A stretch of DNA of 64,000 nucleotides. It comes from Candidatus Gastranaerophilales bacterium (GTDB taxonomy: Bacteria > Cyanobacteriota > Vampirovibrionia > Gastranaerophilales > Gastranaerophilaceae). The DNA lies in the NCBI GenBank assembly GCA_944324905.1, contig CALUYB010000002.1, positions 81,834 to 145,833 of the forward strand, in the 5' to 3' direction. Under the pieces are notes generated by a model. It did no database searches, was not told where the DNA came from, and saw only the letters and a list, made by a program, of their open reading frames with translations. The stretch's first letter is position 1; the number at the start of each line of letters is the position of its first letter. Below, piece after piece: positions 13,901 to 39,775 of the stretch. A program made the position numbers and the translations under genes.

Positions 13901-14077
13901 TTATGCAATTCTTTTTGTTTGGAAGTTGATTACTGCTTTGTTGTTGATTGCGATTAATTCCATTGAGCTCCAAAATTCGTTTGGTGAAAGAGTAGATTTT
14001 GCATCTAGATTTACAGTAACTTTTTCTGAATAAAGTTGTGCTAGTTTTTGATCTAAATCGTTTACTGCTGACATCAT
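13901..14077 (-). CDS. Small hypothetical protein, 58 aa
   Basis: I do not recognise this protein. It starts MMSAVNDLDQKLAQLYSEKV and contains LSPNEFWSSMELIAINNKAV, a mix of one helix and probable strands. Two adjacent ATG codons (14077 and 14074) are possible starts, with AGAAAGAAGA upstream; an upstream ATG at 14149 would add a hydrophobic, unrelated sequence without a ribosome binding site. The gene has its own strong terminator at 13845-13873, which supports its being real and expressed. It is divergent from the glucokinase operon. Confidence 0.6.
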   Translation of the reverse strand: MMSAVNDLDQKLAQLYSEKVTVNLDAKSTLSPNEFWSSMELIAINNKAVINFQTKRIA

Positions 14078-24136: not shown

Positions 24137-24847
24137 ATGGATAAGGCGCTTGATTTTTCAAAGGCTTCAAAGTCTTACAGGGATAATGCGATTGTGCAGA
24201 AACAAATGGCAAGGAGCTTATGTTTATTGTGTGAAAAGTATTTTGGAAAAAAATATTCTAAAATATTTGAAATTGGCTGTGGCACAGGACTTTTGAGCGA
24301 AAATATAGTTAAAAATTTTATATTTGATGAGCTTATTTTAAATGATATAACTGATAATTTTACTGGTTTAAATTACCCGTTTTTAAAAGGCGATGTTACA
24401 AAGATTGATTTAGCTAAAAACTGTAATTTAATAATTTCAAACGCTTGTTTTCAATGGATTTTGGATATTGAAAAATTTTTATTAAAAATAAAAAACTCCC
24501 TTGCAAATGATGGTGTACTTGCTTTTTCAAGTTTTGGCAAAGACAACTGCATTCAGTTTAAAAGTATTGAAAATACAGGGCTTTTTTATGCTGACTATTT
24601 AAAAATTTTGCCTCAGTGCGGATATGAAATTATTGAATATGAAAAAGAAATTCAAACTATTTATTTTTCTTCCCCAATAGAGGTTTTAAGGCACATTAAA
24701 TCAACAGGTGCGATGGTTAGTGATAATCATAAGTGGAACAAAGAGCGCCTTAAAACCTTTGAAGCTAGGTATAGAGAGCTTTTTGGGGATGAAAACGGGG
24801 TTGCACTTACTTATAATCCTGTTTATGTGCTTGCAAAGGCTAAATAA
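24137..24847 (+). CDS. bioC: Malonyl-ACP O-methyltransferase
   Basis: A 236-aa SAM-dependent methyltransferase. FEIGCGTGLLSENI near residue 45 is the SAM-binding motif I, and IISNACFQWILDIEKFL is the post-I/II region characteristic of BioC. BioC methylates malonyl-ACP (or CoA) so that fatty-acid synthase can extend it to a pimeloyl chain. The pairing with bioG in a two-gene operon is a known arrangement. The 3' end overlaps the convergent sigma-factor gene by 8 bp. Confidence 0.9.
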   Translation: MDKALDFSKASKSYRDNAIVQKQMARSLCLLCEKYFGKKYSKIFEIGCGTGLLSENIVKNFIFDELILNDITDNFTGLNYPFLKGDVTKIDLAKNCNLIISNACFQWILDIEKFLLKIKNSLANDGVLAFSSFGKDNCIQFKSIENTGLFYADYLKILPQCGYEIIEYEKEIQTIYFSSPIEVLRHIKSTGAMVSDNHKWNKERLKTFEARYRELFGDENGVALTYNPVYVLAKAK

Positions 24848-25739
24848 CGTAGCTTATTAACATTTCTCTGCAAGCTTTTGTAGAGTGGATTTTTGACAGT
24901 GCGCGCTTTTCAATTTGCCTTATGCATTCTTTTGTAACACCATAAATGTTGCCTATTTCCTCTAGTGTTTTTCTTGCGCTTTCATTTAGTCCAAATCGCA
25001 TTGTAAGGACTTCTTTTTCCCTTGTTTTAAGACACTCTAGCGCGCAATTAATGTCATGTTTTAACTGTTCATCAAGAACATATTTTTCAACATTTTGTTT
25101 TTCGTCTTCAATTATTTCACTAAGGCTCATTTCGCGTGTACCTTTTGAATCATTTTGTGTTTCAAAGCCTGTTTCAAGAGACAGTGCCTTGTTAAATGCA
25201 TTTAAAAATAAATCAATTTTTTCTTCACTATAGCCAATTTTTTCTGCTGCTTGAGAATTTTTTACGCTGCAACCATATTTTTGTTCTAAGCTGGTTTTTG
25301 CTTTTTTGTATCTTGATAGTGTTTCTTGAATGTAGACAGGAATTTTCATTGAATAAGATTGTTCTGAAATTGCTTTAAACATTGCTTGTTTAATCCACCA
25401 GGTGGCGTAAGTAGAAAATTTATAGCCTAGTTTCCAGTTGAACTTGTCAGCTGCTGCCATAAGCCCCATATTGCCTTCTTGAATAAGGTCGCACATACTT
25501 AATGTTGTTGTGTGGATTGATTTTTTTGCTACGTTAAAAACAAGCCTTAAGTTAGACTGTACTAATTTTTTCTTTGCGTCTAAATCGCCTTGAGCCATTT
25601 TTTGTGCCAGCTCTTTTTCTTCGCTTGAGCTTAAAATAGGATATTTTGCAATTTTTCTTACGTACTCACCTAAATTTTCATCAAAGTTTGCAATTTTCGC
25701 GCAGTTAAAATAATTTTTGTTGTTAATTGTTTTTTTCAT
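24840..25739 (-). CDS. RNA polymerase sigma-70 factor, group 2-like
   Basis: A 299-aa sigma factor without region 1.1. Region 1.2 is seen as GEYVRKIAKYPILSS, region 2 as DLIQEGNMGLMAAADKF and the -10-binding TYATWWIKQAM, region 3 follows at YSMKIPVYIQETLSR, and region 4 is EVLTMRFGL with the helix-turn-helix TLEEIGNIYGVTKECIRQIE. All regions needed for -35/-10 promoters are present, so it is either a compact primary sigma or, more probably, a group 2 alternative as is common in cyanobacteria. I prefer the ATG at 25739, nine bases after AGGAG; the ATG at 25748 directly abuts that site. The leader contains two hairpins. Confidence 0.9.
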   Translation of the reverse strand: MKKTINNKNYFNCAKIANFDENLGEYVRKIAKYPILSSSEEKELAQKMAQGDLDAKKKLVQSNLRLVFNVAKKSIHTTTLSMCDLIQEGNMGLMAAADKFNWKLGYKFSTYATWWIKQAMFKAISEQSYSMKIPVYIQETLSRYKKAKTSLEQKYGCSVKNSQAAEKIGYSEEKIDLFLNAFNKALSLETGFETQNDSKGTREMSLSEIIEDEKQNVEKYVLDEQLKHDINCALECLKTREKEVLTMRFGLNESARKTLEEIGNIYGVTKECIRQIEKRALSKIHSTKACREMLISYVI

Positions 25740-25979
25740 AAAAGACATCTCCTAAATATTTCTAACCATAATTTTTGACAATAAAGTATTTGGCGTTTTG
25801 CACGCCACGCCGAGCCTTTTAGGGCTTAATTTTTGCGAATAAAATTTAATAAGATATAACAGGAATTTTTAGCGAATTTTTATGCTTCGCTAAAACAATG
25901 ACCGTATGTAGATAACAACAACTGATATATTTTGTATATCTTTAATATATCACTCGATATAAAAAATAACAAGTCTATT

Positions 25980-26035
25980 GTTAAGAAATATTAAGATGAA
26001 TTTAAAAAATAATTCTATTCTTAATATTTCTTAAC
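25980..26035. repeat. 17-bp perfect inverted repeat with TTAAGA direct repeats
   Basis: The left arm (25980-25996) starts GTTAAGAAATATTAAGA and the right arm (26019-26035) is its exact reverse complement. Each arm contains TTAAGA twice at a 10-bp spacing. GAATT/AATTC inside the loop extends the stem. The same 16-bp core recurs upstream of the gene at 39851. Confidence 0.7.
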
Positions 26036-26154
26036 ATGCAAGTAAAACTAAAAAACACTTGCAGTGGAGCTGATTTTTACCAATTGTTAAGTTTTGTAAA
26101 TAAAAAACAAAAACGCGCAATTTTTTAAAAGTGAAATACTTTATATATATGTAA

Positions 26155-26286
26155 GCGATAACCAAGATATAACAAACATAAAAGATATACTTTCTAACCA
26201 ACACACACTAACCTTCACTTCACACACGAGGAATTACTAAAACAAGTATTCCGAGAGGCTTTTGATAATCAAAAGCCTTTTTCTTT
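26155..26286 (+). ncRNA. Candidate small RNA upstream of ribH
   Basis: A TATATAT element near 26150 is followed by about 75 bases poor in G and rich in A and C, then a hairpin GGAATTACT/AGTATTCC (26230-26252) and a strong 11-bp terminator. No reading frame of useful length or ribosome binding site with ATG is present. This looks like a free-standing transcript of about 130 bases. The 5' end is a guess. Confidence 0.35.
26256..26286 (+). terminator. Strong rho-independent terminator upstream of ribH
   Basis: AGGCTTTTGAT and ATCAAAAGCCT form an 11-bp stem followed by TTTTTCTTT. No gene lies upstream on this strand for more than 1.4 kb, so it must end a non-coding transcript or act as an attenuator before ribH. 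Confidence 0.8.
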
Positions 26287-26341
26287 ATGTAAAATTATTT
26301 TTGTGCTAATATCCTTTTGTAAAGGTTAAAGGGGATATTTT

Positions 26342-26812
26342 ATGCCAAACATTATAGAAGGTAATTTATATGCATCGTCATCAGATAAATTTTGCATTAT
26401 TGTTTCAAGGTTTAATGAATTTATAAGCTCAAAACTTTTAGCAGGTGCACTAGACTCATTCTTGCGTCTTGGTGTATTTGAGGATAATATTGATGTCATT
26501 TGGGTTCCGGGCTCTTTTGAAATTCCTTTAATGGCAAAAAAAGCGGCTCAAACAAAAAAATATTGCGCAATAGTTACTCTTGGTGCGGTTATTAAAGGTT
26601 CAACCAGTCATTATGATTACGTTTGCGCTGAAGTTTCAAAAGGCGTTGCTTCAGTTTCACTCTCAGAAGGTCTGCCTGTCATTTTTGGCGTGCTTACAAC
26701 AGACAATATTGAACAAGCGATTGAGCGTGCTGGTACAAAAGCAGGTAATAAAGGCGCTGATGCTGCAAAATCTGCTATTGAAATGACAAATTTAATTGCG
26801 AATTTAAAGTAA
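26342..26812 (+). CDS. ribH: 6,7-dimethyl-8-ribityllumazine synthase
   Basis: A 156-aa lumazine synthase, the penultimate riboflavin-synthesis enzyme, which joins a ribitylaminouracil to a four-carbon phosphate. Conserved segments include [40 protein letters not shown]-like [33 protein letters not shown] and the Lys/Gly-rich end [13 protein letters not shown]. Length is standard for the icosahedral type. AAAGGGG precedes the ATG. No other rib genes are near and no FMN riboswitch is visible upstream. The gene is followed by a small hairpin region before the AMIN-like gene. Confidence 0.95.
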
Positions 26813-39738: not shown

Positions 39739-39775
39739 AAGAAATATTAAAAGCAAGGTTTAAGAAATATTAAGA
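39739..39775. repeat. Tandem AAGAAATATTAA elements in the glyS/39851 divergent region
   Basis: AAGAAATATTAA occurs at 39739-39750 and again at 39762-39773, an offset of 23 bp. The second copy is embedded in TTAAGAAATATTAAGA (39760-39775), identical to the core of the inverted repeat at 25980. TTAAGA repeats at a 10-bp spacing resemble sites for OmpR/PhoB-type regulators. Confidence 0.6.

Follow-up and report, generated by a model that had tools for sequence, protein, structure and literature searches.

What is the role of a long, perfect inverted repeat lying between two divergent genes, and which factor, if any, recognizes it? The question is raised by a repeat found between a sigma-factor gene and ribH in the window, the 64,000-nucleotide stretch of DNA from a Candidatus Gastranaerophilales bacterium that was analysed. 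Its left (TGTTAAGAAATATTAAGA) and right (TCTTAATATTTCTTAACA) arms have 18 nt each, are 100% complementary and are separated by 22 nt (Table 1). An earlier note on this DNA correctly described the arms as perfect and gave them 17 bp, one less than their actual length. The repeat probably represents (about 0.7) divergent candidate boxes at which a response regulator of the OmpR family would bind; the RpaB orthologue is the likeliest one. The OmpR/PhoB type of site in promoters that the earlier note had suggested is supported by repeats with a 10-bp period, each box featuring two half-sites, by a position conserved across genera and by interchange with the known site of RpaB.

Table 1. Genes, promoter elements and boxes of the window, in window coordinates
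Feature	Position	Strand	Remarks
Best HLR1-type box, TGTAAAGGAATGTAACAA	14162..14179	-	Score 23.4; same promoter class as the small-RNA promoter, before a small ORF
Sigma-70 family factor gene (regions 1.2, 2, 3, 4)	24840..25748	-	Divergent from the ribH side
-10 element TATATT, sigma-gene promoter	25944..25949	-	17-bp spacer from -35; conserved
-35 element TTGTTA, sigma-gene promoter	25967..25972	-	Aligned in 15 genus genomes
Left arm, proximal RpaB-type candidate box	25979..25996	-	HLR1 orientation on - strand, TTAATATTTCTTAACA; about -50 of sigma-gene promoter
Right arm, distal candidate box, inverted	26019..26036	+	40 bp from left arm; about -90 of sigma-gene promoter
Third candidate box TGTTAAGTTTTGTAAATA, small-RNA promoter	26085..26102	+	Score 17.0, ranking second in the window
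GCAATT element of the promoter class	26117..26122	+	Near the -35 place
-10 region TTTATATATATG, small-RNA promoter	26140..26151	+	
Predicted small-RNA gene, class A (start predicted)	about 26157..26288	+	Own box, promoter and terminator
ribH (lumazine synthase)	26342..26812	+	Downstream of small-RNA gene
Further 16-mer copy TTAAGAAATATTAAGA	39760..39775	+	Between glyS (-) and DUF1822/TonB_2 gene (+)

Exchange with the HLR1 box and the encoded regulators

The sigma-70 family factor has orthologues in 55/60 family genomes and scores below every NCBIfam equivalog cut-off. Counted from the start near 25937 that the -35 and -10 elements predict, the centre of the proximal arm falls at about -50 of its promoter. 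Cyanobacterial RpaB activates from positions -45 to -66 and represses when it overlaps the start (PMC13421787). In most other genera the -35 element TTGTTA is replaced by C/GTTGA, and most of the promoters examined there align without gaps, with the box ending a few bases before this element (29 sigma promoters were examined, no promoter being recognized in 3 of these). The proximal box consensus KTWAYAWWTCKTWAYAWW, built from 18 promoters, one per genus and chosen among those with a recognized promoter, amounts to 16.3 bits, and none of 2000 row shuffles exceeded 6.1.

The HLR1 site of RpaB is KTTACAWW-N2-KTTACAWW (PMC13421787; PMC11633204). The sigma-promoter consensus matches it column by column, with two positions relaxed per half-site. 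In one genome (G049) a perfect HLR1, TTTACATTTCTTTACAAA, occupies the proximal slot where the window has TTAATATTTCTTAACA. The two box types also replace each other in the coaX-side promoter between coaX and a 139-aa gene: CTTAATATTTCTTAA or a near form is present in 4 genus genomes (one intermediate) and the HLR1-like TATTAAGTTTTGTTAA or a near form is found at the same place in 11 genomes, both preceding a shared promoter, GGCAATTTTATATA...TATATATA. The published HLR1 consensus, which is external and not derived from these genomes, is enriched 8-fold family-wide (1182 sites versus 149 for the reversed pattern in 60 genomes, each of which exceeds its own control).

The arms themselves do not match the published consensus, as they carry TTAAY in place of the TTACA cores. 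The only HLR1-type form that they fit is the relaxed family consensus TTAAYA-TTTC-TTAAYA (KTWAYAWWNNKTWAYAWW), which describes the site better than the pair of TTAAGA hexamers noticed earlier; the 10-bp period of that pair stands. On a matrix of the small-RNA type of promoter the arms score 4.7, which ranks them about 50th in the window (p 2.5e-4), while the site beside glyS scores -1.5. The promoters of this matrix had been selected with the box as part of the model or pattern, so that box-like sequences are favoured; the sigma-promoter alignment and the count of published HLR1 sites are free of this bias. Judged by their sequence, the arms fall outside canonical HLR1, and it is by position and shared columns that they are equivalent to it.

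Four OmpR-type DNA-binding domains are encoded in the organism's own genome. The protein encoded at L096:1003-1749 passes the RpaB equivalog NF045944 with 365 bits (cut-off 330). L097 and L098 have RpaA as their closest solved relative and pass none of the NCBIfam equivalog cut-offs listed for them. The boxes could thus be sites of one of these two RpaA-like OmpR-family regulators, or be shared with RpaB: both proteins are encoded, the arms are not canonical HLR1, and RpaA and RpaB are reviewed to compete for shared promoters in cyanobacteria (PMC13421787). The column-by-column agreement with the RpaB consensus argues against it, as does the finding that HLR1-type boxes take their place at orthologous positions. 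Since the arms depart from canonical HLR1 while being equivalent by position and shared columns, RpaB is the preferred binder and an RpaA-like one an unlikely second candidate. Note also the 167-aa product of L099:1195-1698, encoded next to a histidine-kinase-like gene; it has no NCBIfam match, and its OmpR-type DNA-binding domain is weak.

Pairing of the arms and recurrence of their core

The 58-bp block aligns without gaps in 15 genus genomes, with a constant arm spacing of 40 bp. Identity is 0.79 and 0.87 for the arms versus 0.56 for the stretch between them, and 10 to 18 of the 18 arm-to-arm pairs are kept. An RNA hairpin would require co-variation of the arms. Because they vary independently while the 40-bp spacing is fixed, the arms look like protein-binding DNA boxes, that is, candidate sites. 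The repeat as RNA does fold to -22 kcal/mol (z -9.3), as would suit a hairpin, terminator or processing site, but the stem has no T run and is not G+C-rich, one arm is absent in many genera and single arms recur elsewhere without a partner. A function as RNA is therefore very improbable, and it was rejected because the pairing, which decays to 10/18 in relatives, is not kept. The distal inverted box is found 40 bp from the proximal one in about ten genomes, in forms that differ by genus (TTAAGAAATATTAAGA, TTAAGAAATATTACA, TTAAGAAATGTAACA, GTAAAGAAATGTAAAA), and is missing in many genera.

The 16-mer core recurs beside glyS, accompanied by AAGAAATATTAA (39739-39750) at 23 bp from the matching letters, both as noted before. 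The gene that follows this copy has DUF1822 and TonB_2 matches, which agrees with its earlier description as TonB-like; its description as a zinc-finger gene found no match in the domain search. The exact 15-mer is present 3 times in the window, and 5 times with up to 2 mismatches versus 1.2 expected. The organism's genome (1.66 Mb) has 4 exact copies and 3 with one mismatch. The exact ones are all intergenic and belong to three regions: sigma gene/ribH (two copies), glyS/DUF1822-TonB_2 gene, and a glycosyltransferase/122-aa gene pair. In the genus, 13/15 genomes carry 2-4 exact copies each (reversed control 0), nearly all of them intergenic and at a few orthologous loci, with the exception of L061, which is in a coding frame. 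The family has 99 exact copies versus 5 of the reversed pattern (78 genomes), and 21 of the 27 copies inspected are intergenic. This excess, the mostly intergenic location and the frequent orthology of the loci bear out that the recurrence is not due to chance, as the earlier note had held. The genome-wide scan located matches mainly between genes rather than evenly through coding DNA, and comparison of orthologous regions found the 15-mer and its sites conserved in genus and family genomes. Every mismatch-free TTAAGA-N4-TTAAGA of the own genome has AATA as spacer, and the unit is therefore the whole 16-mer. Loose TTAAGA-N4-TTAAGA pairs are not enriched (33 versus 80 for the reversed control), so that they are uninformative and only the full 16-mer is enriched.

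Similar TTAAG repeats are found in the CiaR system of streptococci, in which one OmpR-family regulator with TTTAAG-N5-TTTAAG sites (consensus NTTAAG-N5-TTTAAG) drives several related small RNAs (PMC3091779). The system is treated as an analogy and no homology is claimed. That a CiaR-like system operates here is even less probable than an RNA hairpin: the period of the window boxes is 10 bp, not 11 as in the CiaR site, and the encoded regulators are of the RpaB and RpaA types. A mobile or repetitive element (MITE or REP-like), which the palindromic unit and its partial copies elsewhere might evoke, is scarcely credible, since only the 15-16-mer recurs, and does so at loci that are orthologous between genera but have diverged flanks; it was rejected because no copies of the 58-bp unit were found. 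Note that one-mismatch 15-mers are found directly after yidC and lysS (L005 and L006, near 1501), beside terminator-like hairpins.

A predicted small-RNA gene and its promoter class

The setting between the sigma gene and ribH had been recognized in the earlier note, which missed an unannotated, predicted small-RNA gene positioned between the repeat and ribH. The segment 26157-26288 has its own promoter, no conserved reading frame and an intrinsic terminator, whose hairpin (26256-26278) and T run (terminator to 26283) end the gene. The 3' half of the transcript region is almost invariant among orthologues. These differ by single-base indels, which speaks against a coding function. Its core CTAACCTTCMCTTC has 35 occurrences in 21/78 genomes (control 0), which fall in two classes; among 30 family matches the terminator is found in 28 and the -10 region in 27. 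A search of Rfam gave nothing at the gathering threshold in the window, and over the small RNA only weak chance matches. These genes appear to form an undescribed, predicted small-RNA family of two classes. Members of the two classes, at window 26157-26288 and at L087:1576-1696, feature C-rich unpaired stretches (CTAACCTTCACTTCACAC; CTTCCTAACCTTCCCTTCCTAT).

With E values of up to 0.1, a model of this type of promoter, R1, identifies 7-15 sites in each genome of the genus. Sites of R1 are present in 78/78 family genomes and 41/41 genera. As the model contains the box, motif statistics derived from it are partly built in. In the own genome such promoters precede the gene directly upstream of rpaB, CHAP and LysM/EF-hand genes and several small ORFs. 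A promoter pattern that also contains the box, with the same effect on motif statistics, was run over 84,980 genomes and retrieved only records titled Gastranaerophilales, cyanobacteria or unnamed bacteria, as well as three loci titled Acinetobacter. The latter (L177, L178 and L198) are from metagenome-assembled genome records that are probably mis-titled. Together with the RpaB match, this outcome points to a placement of the organism in Gastranaerophilales.

The GCAAT motif of the promoter class is also associated with the 15-mer in other genera, often at 16-18 nt and in either orientation. It is present within 40 nt in 13/27 cases versus 11% at random positions; this was a second attempt, the stricter GCAATT with an extra leading base having given 5/27 versus 7%. 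Distances between the box and the -10 anchor fall into two groups, 35-36 and 46-48 nt, which are roughly one helical turn apart and stem from differently selected promoter sets.

Proposed control by RpaB

RpaB most likely controls the sigma factor and the small RNAs through these candidate boxes, and a switch of the light type may thus run a non-photosynthetic regulon. Phosphorylated RpaB would bind each arm as tandem head-to-tail protomers. The 40 bp between the arms correspond to about 4 helical turns, which would place both on roughly the same helical face. RpaB on the proximal arm, just before the -35 element, would activate the sigma gene from about -50. The small-RNA gene ahead of ribH would have the third box as its driver.

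The arrangement resembles the HLR1/RpaB system in its 18-bp direct repeat with a 10-bp period at about -50 of predicted promoters, in the presence of an RpaB gene, and in its targets, predicted here to include a sigma gene and a small RNA; RpaB of cyanobacteria controls the sigma gene rpoD3/sigD and the small RNA PsrR1 (PMC13421787). It differs in that the window arms have TTAAYA-N4-TTAAYA half-sites instead of KTTACA-N4-KTTACA, form an inverted repeat with a spacing of 40 bp, and belong to a lineage reported to lack photosynthesis. The likeness to PsrR1 of Synechocystis is in the promoter with its RpaB-type box; the small RNAs of the window's family form two C-rich classes with no Rfam family at threshold.

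According to a report of 2013, Melainabacteria lack photosynthesis yet retain RpaA, RpaB and NblS, which may serve another function (PMC3787301); the function of these proteins was reported as unknown (PMC3787301; PMC4040986). It is conceivable, although doubtful, that in this non-photosynthetic sister lineage of cyanobacteria RpaB, acting on both HLR1 and an altered box, runs an ancestral regulon. Equally tentative is the extent of such a regulon, which would include the sigma factor, the two C-rich small-RNA classes, the operon of RpaB itself and many small proteins. If so, the wiring of RpaB to a sigma factor and small RNAs would predate photosynthesis. The boxes provide candidate targets for the RpaA/RpaB question in Melainabacteria, which is now testable with purified protein and short DNA, and the analysis reveals an apparently undescribed small-RNA family in uncultured gut bacteria.

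The strongest HLR1-type promoter of the window is found upstream of a small ORF (13901-14077, - strand) whose product, without Pfam match, begins with MSAVNDLDQK and features FWSSMELIAINNKAVINF. In other genera (L138, L149, L161), ORFs resembling it are preceded by that promoter as well.
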